From NCBI GenBank assembly GCA_000998135.1, contig LCCV01000008.1, positions 1-52,526 of the forward strand: DNA of 52,526 nt. The letters run 5' to 3'. The DNA is from Parcubacteria group bacterium GW2011_GWA2_42_14. GTDB taxonomy: Bacteria > Patescibacteriota > Minisyncoccia > Sungbacterales > GWA2-42-14. This document shows positions 16,626-49,194 of the stretch, piece after piece (the stretch's first letter is position 1; each line of letters begins with the position of its first letter). Position numbers and translations under genes: made by a program. Below the pieces are notes generated by a model. It was not told the origin of the DNA and ran no database searches. It saw nothing but the letters and a program-made list of their open reading frames with translations.

Positions 16626-16858
16626 GCGAGCGTAGCTCAATGGTTAGAGCACGGAGCTTATATCTTGGCAAGGAGGGAGAAGCAAAAATGGGAGTGTAGC
16701 TCAATGGTTAGAGCACGGAGCTTATACCTCCGGGGTTCATGGTTCGAGTCCATGCACTCCCATTTTTGTTCCGACCGAGTGAACCAGATATATCATTGAT
16801 ATACCTCCGGGTTGAAAGCAATAACATTGCTTTCAATGGTTCGAATCCAGGCGCTCGC
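16626..16858 (+). tRNA. Split tRNA-Ile(TAT)-like gene interrupted in the anticodon loop
   Basis: The left piece (16626-16662) has acceptor GCGAGCG, TA, D arm GCTC-AATGGTTA-GAGC, and CGGAG-CTTATA. The right piece (from about 16799) has TATAC-CTCCG, a variable region with the perfect hairpin GAAAGCAAT-AAC-ATTGCTTTC, GG-TTCGAAT-CC, and acceptor CGCTCGC. Acceptor and anticodon stems pair fully across about 137 bases that contain a complete tRNA-Ile. The T stem outer two pairs fail (AATGG/CCAGG). The flanks TATATCTTGG and CCAGATATA are also complementary. Either an intron-bearing tRNA hosting another tRNA, or a broken duplicate. No CCA is encoded. Confidence 0.45.
16690..16762 (+). tRNA. tRNA-Ile (anticodon TAT)
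   Basis: A canonical 73-nt cloverleaf: acceptor GGGAGTG/CACTCCC, D arm GCTC/GAGC, anticodon stem CGGAG/CTCCG with loop CTTATAC (anticodon TAT, reads AUA), variable loop GGGTT, T arm CATGG-TTCGAGT-CCATG, discriminator A. No CCA encoded. Its first half from TAGCTC to CTTATA is identical to that of the split gene that surrounds it. Confidence 0.88.
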
Positions 16859-40976: not shown

Positions 40977-41216
40977 CTACGCGGAAAGGCCGCGCCTCTT
41001 CTGCGCCTCGGCGAACTCGCGCCTGACGCGCGCGAAAATCGCTGTGGCCTTATTGGCGCTCGCCCACATATCCGCGGCCGTATCTCCGTTGGAACGGATG
41101 ATACGCCGCAGTTTGTTGTAGGCGGTACGTTCCGCCTGATTGGCGTACTTCGCCTTGGTCTTGGGCTTTCCAGCCCTTGTGAGCTTCGGCGCGCCCTTTG
41201 CCTGCTTGTCTGCCAT
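40977..41216 (-). CDS. Small basic hypothetical protein (79 aa)
   Basis: Strong ribosome-binding site (AAGAAGGAGAGAGAAA before ATG). Lys/Arg/Ala-rich with GAPKLTRAGKPKTKAKYANQ followed by a helix (ATAIFARVRREFAEAQKRRG); it could bind nucleic acid. GC-rich codon use, unlike clpP next to it. It lies directly downstream of the tRNA array on the same strand. No family recognised. Confidence 0.65.
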   Translation of the reverse strand: MADKQAKGAPKLTRAGKPKTKAKYANQAERTAYNKLRRIIRSNGDTAADMWASANKATAIFARVRREFAEAQKRRGLSA

Positions 41217-41269
41217 TTTCTCTCTCCTTCTTTTGATTGGTTGTTTCTTGTTGTTCGTACCGAACGTTT

Positions 41270-41363
41270 TGGTAGGCGCGGAGGGATTTGAACCCCCAAC
41301 CTTGCCCTGATCTAGGGCTCCGCGGGTATAAGCCGCTCGCTCTGGCCATTGAGCTACGCGCCA
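41270..41363 (-). tRNA. tRNA-Ile(TAT)-like with long variable arm
   Basis: 94 nt with encoded CCA. Acceptor TGGCGCG/CGCGCCT (first pair T-T mismatched), D arm GCTC/GAGC, anticodon stem AGCGG/CCGCG with loop CTTATAC (TAT), T arm GGGGG-TTCAAAT-CCCTC. The variable region is 23 nt and contains the hairpin GCCCT-AGATC-AGGGC, which is class-II size, although Ile tRNAs are class I. Confidence 0.7.
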
Positions 41364-41384
41364 CCAAGCTGTTCTGGTTTTAGC

Positions 41385-41456
41385 TGGTGCCGGCGAAGTC
41401 GAACCCCTACTGTACGGATTTTGAATCCGTTGCCTCTGCCGTTGGGCTAAGCCGGC
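41385..41456 (-). tRNA. tRNA-like gene, anticodon CAA, shortened T arm
   Basis: 72 nt with encoded CCA. Acceptor GCCGGCT/CGCCGGC (one mismatch), D stem GCCC/AGGC, anticodon stem ACGGA/TCCGT with loop TTCAAAA (CAA, Leu codon UUG). Only 18 nt lie between the anticodon stem and the acceptor, about 4 too few, and GGGGTTCGACTT does not make a proper T stem. A normal Leu tRNA would also have a long variable arm. Possibly decayed. Confidence 0.5.
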
Positions 41457-41470
41457 ACCACTTTTTTGAT

Positions 41471-41556
41471 TGGTAGGGAGGGTAGGATTTGAACCTACGC
41501 GGCTTTCACACCAGATTTACAGTCTGGCGCCTTCAACCGGACTCGGCCACCTCCCT
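41471..41556 (-). tRNA. tRNA-Tyr (anticodon GTA)
   Basis: 86 nt with CCA. Acceptor AGGGAGG/CCTCCCT, anticodon stem CCAGA/TCTGG with loop CTGTAAA, class II variable arm, T arm GTAGG-TTCAAAT-CCTAC. Confidence 0.9.
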
Positions 41557-41565
41557 ACAACGGAT

Positions 41566-41650
41566 TGGTACCGGGGAAGAGACTTGAACTCTCACGGGTT
41601 TCCCCATCGGATTTTAAGTCCGACACGTCTGCCAGTTACGCCACCCCGGC
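41566..41650 (-). tRNA. tRNA-Leu (anticodon TAA)
   Basis: 85 nt with CCA. Acceptor GCCGGGG/CCCCGGT, anticodon stem TCGGA/TCCGA with loop CTTAAAA, long variable arm (TGGGGAAACCCGTG), T arm GAGAG-TTCAAGT-CTCTT. Confidence 0.9.
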
Positions 41651-41678
41651 ATCAAAGCATCAAGTTGTTAATGAAAAA

Positions 41679-41754
41679 TGGTGGGCCGTGGTGGCTTTGA
41701 TCCACCTACCCCCTGGTTAAAAGCCAGGTGCTCTTCCGATTGAGCTAACGGCCC
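41679..41754 (-). tRNA. tRNA-Lys (anticodon TTT)
   Basis: 76 nt with CCA. Acceptor GGGCCGT/ACGGCCC, anticodon stem CCTGG/CCAGG with loop CTTTTAA, T stem GGTGG/CCACC. The T loop reads ATCAAAG, with A in place of the almost invariant T at position 54. Confidence 0.88.
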
Positions 41755-41765
41755 ACACATTCTTT

Positions 41766-41840
41766 TGGCTGGAGCGGCAGGATTCGAACCTGCGGTAACC
41801 CGGTTAACAGCCGGGCGCCTTACCGCTTGGCTACGCTCCA
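41766..41840 (-). tRNA. tRNA-Asn (anticodon GTT)
   Basis: 75 nt with CCA. Acceptor TGGAGCG/CGCTCCA, anticodon stem CCCGG/CCGGG with loop CTGTTAA, T arm GCAGG-TTCGAAT-CCTGC, discriminator G. Confidence 0.93.
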
Positions 41841-41881
41841 ACCACAGTTTTTGTTTTCAACCCGAATCTTAAACGAAGGAT

Positions 41882-41974
41882 TGGCTGGGGAGGAGGGACT
41901 CGATTTTCCTTCTCGGAAAATTCCCACCGATGTCGGGTTCAAAGCCCGATGCCTTACCGCTTGGCCACACCCCA
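41882..41974 (-). tRNA. tRNA-Gln (anticodon TTG) with a hairpin inserted in the T loop
   Basis: 93 nt with CCA. Acceptor TGGGGTG/CTCCCCA, D arm GCCA/AGGC, anticodon stem TCGGG/CCCGA with loop CTTTGAA, variable CATCG, T stem GTGGG/CCCTC. The T loop should be 7 nt but is 25: a perfect hairpin ATTTTCC-GAGAA-GGAAAAT sits between position 54 and CGAGT. Confidence 0.75.
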
Positions 41975-41982
41975 ACCACAAT

Positions 41983-42066
41983 TGGTGACCCCGGAGGGAT
42001 TCGATTTCGCCCATCGCGAAATCCCTGGGAGTGACGTCAGTCACTCCCTTCTCATCCCTCCATGGT
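41983..42066 (-). pseudogene. tRNA-Glu 3' fragment with a T-loop hairpin
   Basis: TGGTGACCCCGGAGGGATTCGA (41983-42004) repeats the 3' end of the intact tRNA-Glu at 42094. The T loop carries the hairpin ATTTCGC-GATGG-GCGAAAT at the same place as in tRNA-Gln. The 5' half of a cloverleaf is missing; instead there is a nine-base-pair hairpin (GGGAGTGAC/GTCACTCCC) and GGAGGGAT that pairs with ATCCCTCC. Confidence 0.55.
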
Positions 42067-42093
42067 TTTGATTAATTGCCGTTCTCGGCATTT

Positions 42094-42172
42094 TGGTGAC
42101 CCCGGAGGGATTCGAACCCTCGGTCTCCACCTTGAAAGGGTGGCGTCCTGGGCCTGGCTAGACGACAGGGTC
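42094..42172 (-). tRNA. tRNA-Glu (anticodon TTC)
   Basis: 79 nt with CCA. Acceptor GACCCTG/CGGGGTC, anticodon stem CCACC/GGTGG with loop CTTTCAA, T arm GAGGG-TTCGAAT-CCCTC. First gene of the array. Confidence 0.9.
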
Positions 42173-42186
42173 AAATTTGATTTCTC

Positions 42187-42221
42187 AAGGTCCGACCTTG
42201 ACGCAAAAAAGGTCGGACCTT
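42187..42221. repeat. Right copy of the GGTCCGACC hairpin bracketing the tRNA array
   Basis: AAGGTCCGACCTT-gacgcaaaa-AAGGTCGGACCTT, with an outer inverted pair AAATTTGATT / AATCGAATTT. Same stem as at 40868-40900; the block between them holds the array and the 79-residue basic protein. Confidence 0.65.
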
Positions 42222-42263
42222 AACCGTAAATCGAATTTGACTCTGTCGCATTTTTTCAAAAAA

Positions 42264-42343
42264 CTCCCGCCATACTCACGTAACTTACAACGCACAACTT
42301 TATTTTCAGTTATCGGTTATTGGCTACGGAAGTATGGTAGGAG
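42264..42343. repeat. Cassette-separating inverted repeat 1
   Basis: Ends CTCCCGCCATACT and AGTATGGTAGGAG are inverted repeats. Member of the (C)TCCTACCATA family found also at 42951, 44175, 44651 and 45071. Confidence 0.6.
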
Positions 42344-42363
42344 GGCGAAAAACTTTTTCGCCC

Positions 42364-42912
42364 CTAAAAGAGAAAGGCGTGTAGTAGAACAAGAAGGAGC
42401 GCCACAAGAAGGTATGCCTTGGTTTTTACACCAACAGCTTCCATTCTCATGGTAACCTCGTCCCAGGCACTGCGCTTGTCGGCTCCCTTGCGGGATTCCT
42501 CAAACACCGCTCGACGCGCCTCGGCTGACATAACGAACCCTCGCCCGGTTAACTGGTAGGGTCTCCTCATAAGAGGCCAAAGCCAGTACATTCCTGTCTT
42601 GTCACTGCCGTCATGGAGGAAGTGAATGAACACTCCAAGGGCGAACAGTATCGCAAGATAGGAACTCTGTGTCACCAGCCACACCAATCCCGCGCCCACT
42701 GGTATCAACATCAGCGGGAAATGGATGATATGGTGGCTGACCAGCTTAAACCTTCTCCGGAGCAAAACGTACGGAATGAAATCCAGGTCTGGAAAAAAAG
42801 CGAAAAAGATGGATAGTCCCAGCACACGATAGTCGAACTGAATTCCAAAAAATAAAGACACAATAACGTACACGACCATGCCGCTCGCCAGGTCGATAAA
42901 CACTGATATCAC
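42364..42912 (-). CDS. YdjM/DUF457-like membrane protein
   Basis: 182 residues with about four membrane segments. FFAFFPDLDFIPY and the following SHHIIHFPLMLIPVGAG fit the metal-dependent membrane hydrolase family (YdjM/DUF457), which has a PD-x-D motif and a His-rich helix end. A second His segment is FIHFLHDGSDKTG. Reaction unknown. GC-rich codon use. Ribosome-binding site AAAGGGGTGATATC. Followed by a GGGCGAAAAA/TTTTTCGCCC hairpin and an inverted-repeat element. Confidence 0.65.
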   Translation of the reverse strand: MISVFIDLASGMVVYVIVSLFFGIQFDYRVLGLSIFFAFFPDLDFIPYVLLRRRFKLVSHHIIHFPLMLIPVGAGLVWLVTQSSYLAILFALGVFIHFLHDGSDKTGMYWLWPLMRRPYQLTGRGFVMSAEARRAVFEESRKGADKRSAWDEVTMRMEAVGVKTKAYLLVALLLVLLHAFLF

Positions 42913-42950
42913 CCCTTTCTCTTGTTGTTATGAAATTTTTACCAAAGAAC

Positions 42951-43050
42951 CCCTACAATAAACTGTGATTAAAAATGTGGAAAGTTAAATATTGAAAGTA
43001 GTTTCTACGCTCCACATTCCACACTCTACAATCATAATCTATGGTAGAAG
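42951..43050. repeat. Cassette-separating inverted repeat 2
   Basis: CTACAATAAACTGTGATT on the left faces AATCATAATCTATGGTAG on the right; imperfect arms with AATGTGG/CCACATT inside. Confidence 0.5.
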
Positions 43051-43108
43051 CGGGTGGCTGATTCCTGATTGTGTCAGAAACCAACCACCCGTGATACGGG
43101 TCTGGTTA

Positions 43109-43555
43109 CTACTTCACGTTACCGCTCCAGACCCAACTCGGATTCGGGCCGCCCCTGGCCATCCGCTCGAAAGCGGCCCTGATGCCGACATTTCGGTTTC
43201 GAAGCATGTTCCGGAAACTCTTCCGAATCCCGGAAAGCTCCCTTCGCTCCCGGACGAGACCCCTCATCTCGGCCAAGGTATCGGCCTTGACCACCGGAAG
43301 AACCTGCCGAAGAACACGCAATTCCGCAAGAAACGAATCCAGCATCTTCTGGCGAATCTGCGCGATAGCGATCTCGCCAGAAAGCGGGTTCCCGGGCGCC
43401 GTGGTCTCCGGCACCTTGATTTCCATCAGGCGAGGATCCGCCTCGGGAAGTGCGTTGGAAACGCCCGGCGCCGCAATTTCGGCGTCCACCTCATTGACCC
43501 AGCCCGACACCTTGTCCAGCCGGGCCTGAATCCTCTCGTTCGTGGTCTTGGGCAT
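43109..43555 (-). CDS. Hypothetical helical protein (148 aa)
   Basis: Start at 43555 chosen by AAGAAAGGAAAGAAC before ATG; longer upstream frames lack a site. Mainly helical: TTNERIQARLDKVSGWVNEVDAEI, then IAIAQIRQKMLDSFLAELRVLRQVLPVVKADTLAEMRGLVRERREL and a basic end (IRKSFRNMLRNRNVGIRAAFERMARG). No family recognised. Followed by a CGGGTGG/CCACCCG hairpin and repeat element 2. Confidence 0.65.
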   Translation of the reverse strand: MPKTTNERIQARLDKVSGWVNEVDAEIAAPGVSNALPEADPRLMEIKVPETTAPGNPLSGEIAIAQIRQKMLDSFLAELRVLRQVLPVVKADTLAEMRGLVRERRELSGIRKSFRNMLRNRNVGIRAAFERMARGGPNPSWVWSGNVK

Positions 43556-43617
43556 GTTCTTTCCTTTCTTGGCCGTCCGCCTCTGGCGGATTAGACCTTT
43601 CTTTGTCATTTCTGGAA

Positions 43618-43950
43618 CTACTGCACTTCCCTCAAAACCTGCTCGGCCTTCTCTTGAGCCCGAAAAACAGACCAGACATCCACCCAGCATCCGTTGTCGT
43701 GGAGGACGATTTGGCCGGTCCGGACCATCCCGTTCAGGATGTCGCAAACCAAAGCCGCCTTCTCCTTGTCATTGGTCTTTCCTCGCAAGCCAAGTTTCTC
43801 CATCATTGCGTAGATGGAGGAGGCCGGAAGAACAGGACAATGATGCCCTTTCAACTCCGCCTCGATACGCCATCCGTTCGCACTGACAATCACGAACGGC
43901 CCTTTCTGATAAACCGGATTGTTCTCGAAGTATCCGACTTCCTGTGCCAT
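43618..43950 (-). CDS. Hypothetical protein (110 aa)
   Basis: Start at 43950 set by AAAGGGGTGAACAAC before ATG. MAQEVGYFENNPVYQKGPFVIVSANGWRIEAELKGHHCPVLPASSIYAMMEKLGLRGK... and a C-terminal region with NGCWVDVWSVFRAQEKAEQ. Mixed alpha/beta, soluble. Unknown. It may be co-transcribed with the next minus-strand gene 62 bases downstream. Confidence 0.65.
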   Translation of the reverse strand: MAQEVGYFENNPVYQKGPFVIVSANGWRIEAELKGHHCPVLPASSIYAMMEKLGLRGKTNDKEKAALVCDILNGMVRTGQIVLHDNGCWVDVWSVFRAQEKAEQVLREVQ

Positions 43951-44005
43951 GTTGTTCACCCCTTTCCTTATCCTCCGTAGCTTTATGCGAAAGAGGTTTT
44001 TAGGT

Positions 44006-44149
44006 TTATTCGCCATGTTTCTGCCAGTCGCGAACCGCATCTTTGCGGTCGCGCTGGCGGTTATAGCCGCCCTTTTTCGGTGTGTGCGCCCCGCCGGTTT
44101 GTTTCGGCAAGGGCAAACGAACCGAAATTTTCTTACCCCATATCTTCAT
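44006..44149 (-). CDS. Small basic hypothetical protein (47 aa)
   Basis: Start at 44149 set by GAAAGGAGAAAAAATA before ATG. Sequence is highly basic (KIWGKKISVRLPLPKQTGGAH, then TPKKGGYNRQRDRKDAVRDW), which suggests nucleic-acid binding. No family recognised. Confidence 0.55.
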   Translation of the reverse strand: MKIWGKKISVRLPLPKQTGGAHTPKKGGYNRQRDRKDAVRDWQKHGE

Positions 44150-44174
44150 TATTTTTTCTCCTTTCCTCAAAGAT

Positions 44175-44270
44175 CTCCTACCACAACTCATGAACCATAC
44201 AACATATAACTTGTAACATTCGGTATGATTTTGTGTTTCATGCTTCATGTTTCGTGAAGTATGGTAGGAG
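44175..44270. repeat. Cassette-separating inverted repeat 3
   Basis: Perfect nine-base ends CTCCTACCA (44175-44183) and TGGTAGGAG (44262-44270); interior TCATGAACCATACAAC and TTTCATGCTTCATGTTTCGTG. Confidence 0.7.
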
Positions 44271-44321
44271 CCGGTAACCGAAGTCACCGGCTATTGGGGC
44301 GGGATGGAATCTGTGCGTGGC

Positions 44322-44588
44322 CTAACCGCGGCCTCGCTTCACTTCCTCGGCCCTTTTGAAGGCCTGGAAGAAAGCGGAGGAGGCCAACCGCTGGGCCTCG
44401 CGCTCGGCGTCACGCTTGAGCGTCTCGGAAAGCCGAAACGCCCTGACGCCGTGCCTACGGCCGATGGCGGCATCCCGACCGCAGACGATCACGCGCTTTC
44501 CACGCGTGACCTTCGGGTCAAGATTCCACATCTTCTCGGCCTCGGCCGAGAACCCGCAGGGCTGAACGGAGCAAATGAACTTTTCCAT
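44322..44588 (-). CDS. Hypothetical protein (88 aa)
   Basis: Start at 44588 set by AAAAGGGGACAGGATA before ATG. MEKFICSVQPCGFSAEAEKMWNLDPKVTRGKRVIVCGRDAAIGRRHGVRAF, then a charged helix (SETLKRDAEREAQRLASSAFFQAFKRAEEVKRG). Two Cys in the first 11 residues and one near 37. No family recognised. A GCCGGTgac...ACCGGC hairpin and repeat element 3 follow. Confidence 0.6.
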   Translation of the reverse strand: MEKFICSVQPCGFSAEAEKMWNLDPKVTRGKRVIVCGRDAAIGRRHGVRAFRLSETLKRDAEREAQRLASSAFFQAFKRAEEVKRGRG

Positions 44589-44650
44589 TATCCTGTCCCC
44601 TTTTGCGCCCGCTTTAATGCGGCGCTGTTTGTTGTTATAAAGAACTGGTC

Positions 44651-44728
44651 CCCCCACCATAACTAGTGACATGAGACATGTTTCATGTAGCATGTTTCTT
44701 ATCATTTGTCGCTAAACTATGGTAGAAG
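44651..44728. repeat. Cassette-separating inverted repeat 4
   Basis: CCCACCATAACTAGTGACATGAGACATG on the left faces TTATCATTTGTCGCTAAACTATGGTAGAAG on the right, with TTTCATGTAGCATGTTTC in the centre. This copy joins the TATGGTAG ends with the CATGTCAC family found near nusA and cca. Confidence 0.65.
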
Positions 44729-45070
44729 GGCGAGGCGGAGCTGGAGAACTTGCATTCTCATGGGCTTTCGGCCCGGGCTTTTTCGCCTCGCCTTTTTTGC
44801 AGGGTGGAAGTTCTCCATCACTGGTCCCGAGCAGAGGCCTCTGCTCGATCCGGAGTATTTTCCCCGGCTCCAGTTCCTCTCACACCGCCACCCACGGTAT
44901 GAGAATTTCCCGAGTTGGCCCGTTGGTTATGGTGGGCCAAACCTTTTTACCTCGGGAGTCACGGTCGCGAGCCGTGACGGAGAAATTTTTTGAAGATGCG
45001 GGGAGAGAGTTTTGTATGCTCTGCCGGAGTCCGCAAACTCTGTCTTATTTTTAGCCGAGCGCGCTCTCTC
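44729..45070 (-). ncRNA. Gene-free, strongly folded segment (candidate structured RNA)
   Basis: No credible coding frame. On the minus strand it shows a closing stem GGGGAGAGA/TCTCTCCCC (ends about 45070 and 44999), GTCACGG-ctcgcga-CCGTGAC, CCCGAG...TGGCCC-n-GGGCCA...CTCGGG, TTCTCATACCG/CGGTGTGAGAGGAA, CCGG-n-CCGG, CGAGCAGAG/CTCTGCTCG, GGAGAACTT/AAGTTCTCC and GGCGAGGCG/CGCCTCGCC. It is bounded by repeat elements 4 and 5, like the protein cassettes. I could not match it to RNase P RNA, tmRNA or SRP RNA. Confidence 0.4.
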
Positions 45071-45150
45071 CCCTGCCAAAAACTGTTAGTGACAAGCAGC
45101 ATGTCCCATGTTTCTTGTCTCATGTCACTAAAAAACTTTGGTAGAAGGGG
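45071..45150. repeat. Cassette-separating inverted repeat 5
   Basis: CCTGCCAAAAACTGTTAGTGACAAGCA on the left faces TTGTCTCATGTCACTAAAAAACTTTGGTAGAAG on the right. CATGTCAC core present. Confidence 0.65.
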
Positions 45151-45160
45151 GTGAACAACA

Positions 45161-45475
45161 ATGCCATCACCCCAGTTGGCCGCAGAGTTCCGCTCTGCAT
45201 CGGTGCGCGTCATCCGGAAGCATGGGGGTGGACCCACACGCTACGAGGGGTTTTTGCCCTCGCCTCCCGGATTATCCGTCATTAGTGGCAGCCAGTCCAC
45301 CGCTGACATCCCGCTATTGCTGCGGGACACGGCTACTGCCGGAGACGCACGAACTTGCGCCCCCACTCAGCCGTTGATTGACGATAGCGGACGCGCAAGT
45401 CCTTGCACTTTTACTTCTTGCCAGCCATTCATCCACTCCGCCGTAGTCGCTAGTCGCCGCAGGCGCCGCGGATGA
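45161..45475 (+). CDS. Doubtful GC-rich frame (104 aa)
   Basis: Preceded by AAGGGGGTGAACAACA, nearly the same leader as the convincing minus-strand gene at 43950, but the product (MPSPQLAAEFRSASVRVIRK...) is Ser/Pro/Arg-rich and lacks a protein-like pattern. The DNA is full of hairpins (GCAGAG/CTCTGC, CGAGGGG/CCCTCG, CCCGC/GCGGG), so it may be structured RNA instead. Confidence 0.2.
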   Translation: MPSPQLAAEFRSASVRVIRKHGGGPTRYEGFLPSPPGLSVISGSQSTADIPLLLRDTATAGDARTCAPTQPLIDDSGRASPCTFTSCQPFIHSAVVASRRRRRG

Positions 45476-45503
45476 CAGACTCCGGACGAACAGCTGGCAA
45501 GTT

Positions 45504-45584
45504 GCAAACGAACAGGTTTTTGCTGCCGATATCCTTCGCCTTCGCTCAGGATGACTTTTTAGCAACAAGAACCTGTTCGTTTGC
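45504..45584. repeat. GCAAACGAACAGG inverted repeat
   Basis: GCAAACGAACAGGTTTTTGC on the left and GCAACAAGAACCTGTTCGTTTGC (right, reversed) form a long stem around TGCCGATATCC...AGGATGACTTTTTA. Palindromic element. Confidence 0.65.
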
Positions 45585-46311
45585 CTTAAAAATTTATTAA
45601 AAGAACTTTTTGTCCGCAACTGTCCGCGTTAAATTCGCGTAATTGTCTGCGTAATTCTGCGTTAAGTCCGCAACTGTCCGCGTCCCCACAGGGAAGCCGC
45701 TAAATCGGTTATGGTGACCTCCGCGCGCGCTTTAAAGACAAAGTTGTTTATAAGCAACGACGCTTGTTGAGCCCATAACCGAGCCAGCGGCCTCCCTCCC
45801 AGCTTACGCTGGGCGAGGATCGCCTCGCCCCAAAGGGGCGGGCGGCCCCGCGAGAAGCTCCCCCCAGCCCCAGTTTTCGCCTTCCGAAACAAGATTGAAA
45901 TCTGTCTTAGAAAGCAAAAACTGGAGCTGGATACCTTTTAGCCTCATATTTTCAACCAAGGGCCTAATAAAGTTGTTTTATGCCTGTTGAAAATATGTTG
46001 TATCCGTTGATTTATTCCCGTCTGGCGGGCGAAGTCCCGAGTTAAACCCAGAATCCTTCGTCCAAAGCGCCGTTCCTTATAGCAGTATGAAAATTATTTC
46101 AGTTTTAAGTGATACAATATCACTAAACCATTTTATTTTGCTACTTAGATCGGACGTTTCAGATTTCTTGATTGTCAACATCATCATATTATCATATCAT
46201 TGACTAAATGTCAAGAATATGAGATAATTTATTTAAAGAAATACAAAAAACAGCATTTTTAGCTGATTTTTTTATATAATAAATCTGTCAAAAACTTTCA
46301 ACATTTTTTAA
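45585..46311. other. Long gap: structured GC-rich part, then AT-rich spacer
   Basis: Two direct copies of GTCCGCAACTGTCCGCGT (about 45611 and 45668). Then nested pairings CCGCT...CGGTTATGG / CCATAACCG...AGCGG (45690-45792), GGGCGAGG-n-CCTCGCCC and GCCCCAAAGGGGCGGGC (about 45810-45845), and a long stem CCAGCCCCAGTTTT / AAAACTGGAGCTGG (about 45864-45930). No gene seen. From about 46080 the DNA is AT-rich and leads to the deaminase promoter. Confidence 0.4.
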
Positions 46312-48837: not shown

Positions 48838-49194
48838 ATGGAATATTCTGGTTATAGAAAATTAAATGTCTATCTCAAATCGCATGCGCTTGTTTTATTA
48901 GTATATAAAGTTACAAAAACTTTTCCGAAAGACGAATTATTCTGTTTAACTTCTCAGATGCGAAGATGCTCTATTTCCGTGCCAGCAAATATTGTTGAAG
49001 GATATGGACGAAGAACAGCAAATGATAAACTACAATTTTACTACATAGCCAGAGGCTCGCTTAATGAATTGGAATACTATATTGATTTAGCTTTAGATTT
49101 GGGATATATCACGGAAAAAGATTATGAGGAATTACAAAATTTAAGAAATGATGTAGGCCGTTTATTAAACGGTTTTATAAAATCAATAAAGTAA
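48838..49194 (+). CDS. Four-helix-bundle protein (23S rRNA IVS-protein/Avd-like family)
   Basis: 118 residues. The family signature FCLTSQMRRCSISVPANIVEGYGRR is clear, with four helices in total. Such proteins are encoded in intervening sequences of bacterial 23S rRNA and as free genes, and share the fold of Avd of diversity-generating retroelements; their molecular role is not settled. Here the gene interrupts the ribosomal operon region between rplL and a winged-helix gene and is bracketed within a few bases by inverted copies of the CATGTCAC repeat, as if it were carried by that element. Confidence 0.88.
   Translation: MEYSGYRKLNVYLKSHALVLLVYKVTKTFPKDELFCLTSQMRRCSISVPANIVEGYGRRTANDKLQFYYIARGSLNELEYYIDLALDLGYITEKDYEELQNLRNDVGRLLNGFIKSIK

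Follow-up and report, generated by a model that had tools for sequence, protein, structure and literature searches.

Hairpins of one family and cognate tRNA genes as inserts in tRNA-gene loops of a Sungbacteria-like genome and its relatives

Two tRNA-derived sequences in a tRNA array of a Sungbacteria-like genome carry a hairpin at one fixed position of the T loop, and both hairpins are members of a single family, here denoted hpB, that recurs beside many tRNAs of the same genome and in related genomes. Inserts occur in three loops (T, D and anticodon); the original prediction had described hairpins in T loops, and some loci instead hold a whole tRNA as the insert. We propose that hpB is probably the terminal hairpin of small palindromic mobile elements, a non-coding family of Sungbacteria and related CPR bacteria whose main targets are tRNA-gene loops and which enters other sites less often. 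Few genes are as conserved as those for tRNAs, and the loops of bacterial tRNAs are expected to be fixed; here structured DNA, whole tRNAs included, appears to have landed in them repeatedly.

Hairpin-bearing tRNA copies in the window

The window (the whole stretch of 52,526 nt that was analysed) is contig 8 of a 1.24 Mb genome that is 95% complete, and our analysis agrees with the earlier assignment of the host to the CPR. The tRNA array (41270-42172) lies within a segment of raised GC content (~0.5 vs 0.37-0.43 across most of the window) and its tRNAs encode their CCA ends, whereas most chromosomal tRNAs of the same genome do not. The region 41200-46200 has the appearance of an acquired island: besides raised GC and the array it contains several small ORFs that match no Pfam family, and repeated TATGGTAG(A/G)AG motifs adjoin inverted repeats. 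A tRNA-like gene with a CAA anticodon (41385-41459, minus strand) lacks a long variable arm, has a collapsed T arm and scores 28.9 bits with Rfam, slightly below the gathering score. A gene for a 23S rRNA intervening-sequence protein (PF05635), a family named after inserts within rRNA genes, is located at 48838-49194 (plus strand).

Table 1. Positions of tRNA genes, tRNA-derived shells and hairpins in the window.
Feature	Position	Strand	Basis or remark
Outer tRNA-Ile(TAT), 5' piece, broken in anticodon loop	16626-16662	+	Fold and cognate score
tRNA-Ile(TAT), intact, nested in anticodon loop of outer copy	16689-16763	+	ARAGORN, Rfam, fold
Outer tRNA-Ile(TAT), 3' piece	16798-16858	+	Further hairpin 16812-16836 in variable region
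tRNA-Ile(TAT) of array	41270-41363	-	ARAGORN and Rfam; extra hairpin 41304-41318 in variable region
tRNA-Gln(TTG) with 18-nt T-loop hairpin, redundant array copy	41882-41974	-	Rfam RF00005, 39.1 bits
Hairpin hpB of tRNA-Gln, ATTTTCC-GAGAA-GGAAAAT	41903-41921	-	Position 54/55
23-nt exact direct repeat of tRNA-Glu(TTC) 3' end	41982-42004; other copy 42093-42115	-	
Glu-derived shell	41983-42061	-	Fold: outer stem GGAGGGAT/AUCCCUCC enclosing two hairpins
Hairpin hpB in T loop of Glu shell, ATTTCGC-GATGG-GCGAAAT	42004-42022	-	Position 54/55
First hairpin of Glu shell, GGGAGTGAC-TGAC-GTCACTCCC	42027-42048	-	Fold
tRNA-Glu(TTC), intact, adjoining its shell	42094-42172	-	ARAGORN; Rfam, 61.8 bits

The tRNA-Gln(TTG) gene forms a complete cloverleaf in which a perfect 7-bp hairpin, predicted to lie directly after the T stem and confirmed there, separates this stem from CGAGT. 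The resulting T loop has 25 nt (A-ATTTTCC-GAGAA-GGAAAAT-CGAGT) instead of the normal 7, an excess of 18 nt. Rfam scores the gene as a tRNA (gathering score 29) and ARAGORN misses it. The gene has two U-U mismatches (6-67 and 50-64) and is therefore not pristine. The check for a second tRNA-Gln(TTG) that had been suggested was run and identified an intact gene elsewhere in the genome (C5:16565-16635), so the window copy is redundant. A 23-nt stretch that includes the Gln hairpin has an identical copy inside the 16S rRNA gene of a relative (G004).

The second hairpin belongs to what had been taken for a 3' fragment of tRNA-Glu. The 3' end with its CCA is present, but the sequence is more than a fragment: its 5' end pairs to form an outer stem around two hairpins (Table 1), the second of which is hpB. 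The T loop of this shell has 24 nt (ATTTCGC-GATGG-GCGAAAT-CGAAT), 17 nt above normal. As predicted, a different hairpin thus occupies the same spot as in tRNA-Gln, between positions 54 and 55, and in both cases the tRNA resumes with CGA(G/A)T; the agreement in size that had been claimed along with that in position holds to within one base (18 vs 17 nt). The two direct-repeat copies of the tRNA-Glu 3' end are only ~90 nt apart.

The hpB family and nested tRNA genes

Both window hairpins belong to a family whose consensus is GGGA-[ATTTTSC-GAGRR-GSAAAAT]-CGANTCC. Across 14 examples the stem is 95.9% paired, a value owed in part to the examples having been picked as hairpins, with changes on both sides at five of the seven pairs and a covariation score of 0.419 (0.184 in shuffles). 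The loop, conservation of which was not a criterion of selection, is conserved in these 14 and begins with an invariant GA. A family model (R3) identifies 22 distinct sites in the source genome (23 matches, one site being matched on both strands). The two window sites, both in the training set, score E = 1e-12 and 6.5e-11; these values, together with the same hairpin type in other genomes, exclude a chance origin of the window hairpins.

Thirteen of the 22 sites lie within 300 nt of a tRNA, although all 13 trained R3 and are no independent test of it. The tRNAs concerned include Glu(CTC), Leu(CAG), Leu(TAA), Leu(TAG), Gln(CTG) and Arg(TCT), as well as Ile, Cys, Tyr, Pro(TGG) and Ala(TGC). Nearly all of these hairpins interrupt the T loop of a 'shell', a partial copy of the adjacent tRNA, whose 3' end continues after hpB; the module beside Ala(TGC) seems to be located in a D loop. 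The other nine sites, one of them weak, are away from tRNAs, and several of them hold a composite unit made up of a hairpin hpA, a CGGGCGAAGCCC linker and then hpB. Among relatives, seven of 11 strong hpB loci outside the training set have a tRNA inside the ~1-kb locus, hpB is found beside tRNAs in the single-contig genome G012, and a ~1.7-kb 16S rRNA gene of G004 (L169, 774-2497) has an insert that contains the hpA-linker-hpB unit.

Neither the exact Gln hairpin nor the hpA-linker-hpB core is present in the viral contigs searched, and a degenerate hairpin pattern run against 380 genomes of the phylum matched the window alone. Two models of synthetic T arms, R1 and R2, in which tRNA arms were combined with random hairpins, recovered few true cases, because normal tRNAs score too and no more than 16 candidates per genome are scored in large sets. 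The general ATTTYSC hairpin pattern is enriched in the order, in part because terminators and palindromes particular to G011 resemble it, and its count was set aside as evidence. In G011 (L068-L087) at least 20 of 27 pattern matches lie inside larger palindromes of the form CACCCTGTTAAAT-hairpin-hairpin-ATTTAACAGGGTG, whose ends resemble repeats that flank nested tRNAs in the source genome.

In these nests an intact tRNA gene occupies the D or anticodon loop of another copy of itself. Around chromosomal tRNAs, the upstream flank contains 5' pieces and the downstream flank 3' pieces of the tRNA in question, the break falling in the T, D or anticodon loop. Inverted repeats, in many cases ACCCCGTTA...TAACGGGG, form the joints, and folding of the loci gives stems within loops. 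For the nested tRNA-Ile(TAT) of the window (Table 1), the outer 5' piece has a cognate score of 68 vs at most 34 for any non-cognate tRNA. Leu(CAG) is nested three deep, with an intact gene in a middle copy which is itself in an outer copy bearing a T-loop hairpin, and two loops of an outer Ile(GAT), D and anticodon, each contain a tRNA-Ile. Under a strict test, in which a tRNA qualifies when it outscores all tRNAs of different amino acids on its own flank and no more than one further flank matches equally well, 15 of 36 chromosomal tRNAs are flanked by their own copies (200 random pairings: mean 0.88, maximum 4). The leader/trailer inverted repeats of 11 of 37 tRNAs exceed the 99% level of non-partner pairings.

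Nested tRNAs occur in several other families of the class. In G002 the anticodon loop of an outer tRNA-Asp, both pieces of which are apparently identical to the inner gene, encloses another tRNA-Asp, and further cases were found in G011, G040, G066 and G126; most Leu loci from other families, a rough negative control, show no nesting. In genome G000, tRNA-Ser, tRNA-Phe and tRNA-Val other than CAC were not found, nor did a search for interrupted-only forms of these tRNAs recover any; they are probably missing through assembly gaps.

Origin of the inserts

Fixed position, recurrence, a covarying stem, cognate nesting, and copies outside tRNAs, in a 16S rRNA gene and in other genomes point to the mobile family proposed above. 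An insert between positions 54 and 55 leaves the acceptor stem in place, along with the T stem and CGANT; in the D or anticodon loop it is often a stem that bears the same tRNA in full. This intact copy, or one that adjoins the interrupted gene, would sustain translation, and the interrupted copy could then survive as a shell open to further inserts. Loops may be entered because they are exposed or because changes there are tolerated. We infer that each element moves as a unit and that tRNA function has been lost in most shells. A simple palindromic insertion alone leaves the match between inserted and host tRNA unexplained; the target may be copied during insertion, or gene conversion may act later. 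Exact copies at different sites are few, and recent movement is visible just indirectly. We tentatively extend the proposal to a new palindromic mobile class of the CPR that enters tRNA loops and might carry or copy the tRNA it interrupts, which could give nests up to three deep.

A different reading takes the hairpin-bearing and shell tRNAs for working RNAs, in which either the mature tRNA tolerates the hairpin or a split tRNA is held together by the inverted-repeat stem, the inner tRNA being excised while the outer halves remain joined. With cloverleaf segments laid out by hand, the Ala(GGC) shell keeps 21 of 21 pairs with nine changes on both sides, the second Asp shell 21 of 21 with five, and the Ile(GAT) shell, whose T arm is not alignable, 16 of 16 with six. 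Since these stems are kept despite divergence, inner and outer copies must each have evolved as tRNAs for some time, and covariation of the hpB stem favours function as well. Pairs are, however, broken in other shells (four of 17 in the outermost Leu shell, two of 20 in Gln, two in Ile(TAT)), several shells are split in the anticodon loop and each shell examined has an intact counterpart, and we regard function as tRNAs as unlikely.

Integration into a tRNA T loop has a precedent in mycobacteriophage Ms6 (PMC1762012), and the inserts could be scars of site-specific integrases that attach at tRNA genes; the 3' copies would then be displaced att ends and the hairpins recombinase core sites. The 23 nt of the tRNA-Glu 3' end that recur as a direct repeat, and the position of the array in a GC-rich segment, are in accordance with this. 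Yet 5' pieces of the shells are present as well, ahead of the intact gene, the D and anticodon loops are also used, the units measure just ~20-200 nt, the hairpin stems differ in sequence, hpB is found away from tRNAs, and no integrase gene fits in the ~90 nt between the direct repeats of the window; such an origin is decidedly improbable. The suggestion that the inserts are tiny introns, removed from the transcript, has still less to recommend it. They do lie within tRNA genes, and rRNA-gene introns are reported in many CPR bacteria (PMC7143001), but no Rfam intron or other family matches, the hairpins lack a bulge-helix-bulge, intact copies make splicing unnecessary and splicing does not explain nested complete tRNAs.

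Of the earlier guesses, expansions that mark defunct tRNAs came nearest: an intact Gln(TTG) exists elsewhere and an intact Glu(TTC) next door. Random decay does not account for the inserts, which form a recurrent, structurally conserved family at many tRNAs and in relatives, occupy D and anticodon loops too, and sometimes consist of a whole tRNA. Decay of spare tRNAs, for which the redundancy and two mismatched pairs of the window tRNA-Gln could be cited, or an assembly error is already contradicted by the evidence, and we give either very little credence: numerous tRNAs carry the same hairpin type, several assemblies made independently of one another show it, among them that of G012, and its loop is conserved while its stem covaries.

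Comparison with known elements

A search of the open literature recovered no description of nested tRNA genes, tRNA-loop hairpins or CPR tRNA insertions, which is weak evidence given that subscription journals were mostly uncovered; within this scope, the original prediction seems right that no class of T-loop hairpins has been described in bacterial tRNAs. Both the gene arrangement and the mobile element would be of a new kind. Mis-annotation of tRNAs in CPR genomes could follow, since ARAGORN misses hairpin-bearing tRNAs, and the loci offer a natural experiment on the amount of additional structure that a tRNA loop tolerates.

The nearest known systems are the mitochondrial double-hairpin elements and the REP/REPIN palindromes, and neither fits on the features tested. 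Double-hairpin elements (DHE) and repetitive hairpin elements (RHE) are small, dispersed, non-coding elements of one to three hairpins in fungal and sponge mitochondria, located between genes and inside rRNA genes and presumed mobile (PMC10085805, PMC2800124). They share with the hpA-linker-hpB unit of several non-tRNA sites the arrangement of adjacent hairpins as a dispersed non-coding unit. The elements here are bacterial, concentrated in tRNA loops and may have whole cognate tRNA genes as inserts. Copies of a DHE/RHE hairpin keep strongly conserved sequences, some of them identical in different species of fission yeast, whereas hpB stems vary and covary between copies and it is structure and loop that are conserved. 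Integrative elements that target tRNAs, such as Ms6, likewise use the T loop and duplicate tRNA 3' ends, but here neither integrase nor cargo is seen, and there are 5' pieces, three loops and copies outside tRNAs. The split, permuted and intron-bearing tRNA genes of archaea and algae are also interrupted within loops; they differ in that the interruptions here lack a bulge-helix-bulge and can contain a complete tRNA of the same kind.

REP/REPIN/BIME sequences are, like hpB, short dispersed palindromes of bacterial genomes. No enzyme linked to the hpB elements was found. RAYT (Y1, TnpA_REP) transposases are present in 12 of 18 genomes, and a role for them as the mover is unsupported: G004, G011 and G040 carry elements or nested tRNAs yet have no RAYT gene, and at 17 of 18 RAYT loci no convincing hpB flanks the gene, which has other palindromes around it. 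At L219 (G005) and L224 (G012) the RAYT genes lie amid CTATAGAGG...CCTCTATAG palindromes that are REP-like and separate from the tRNA-loop hairpins.
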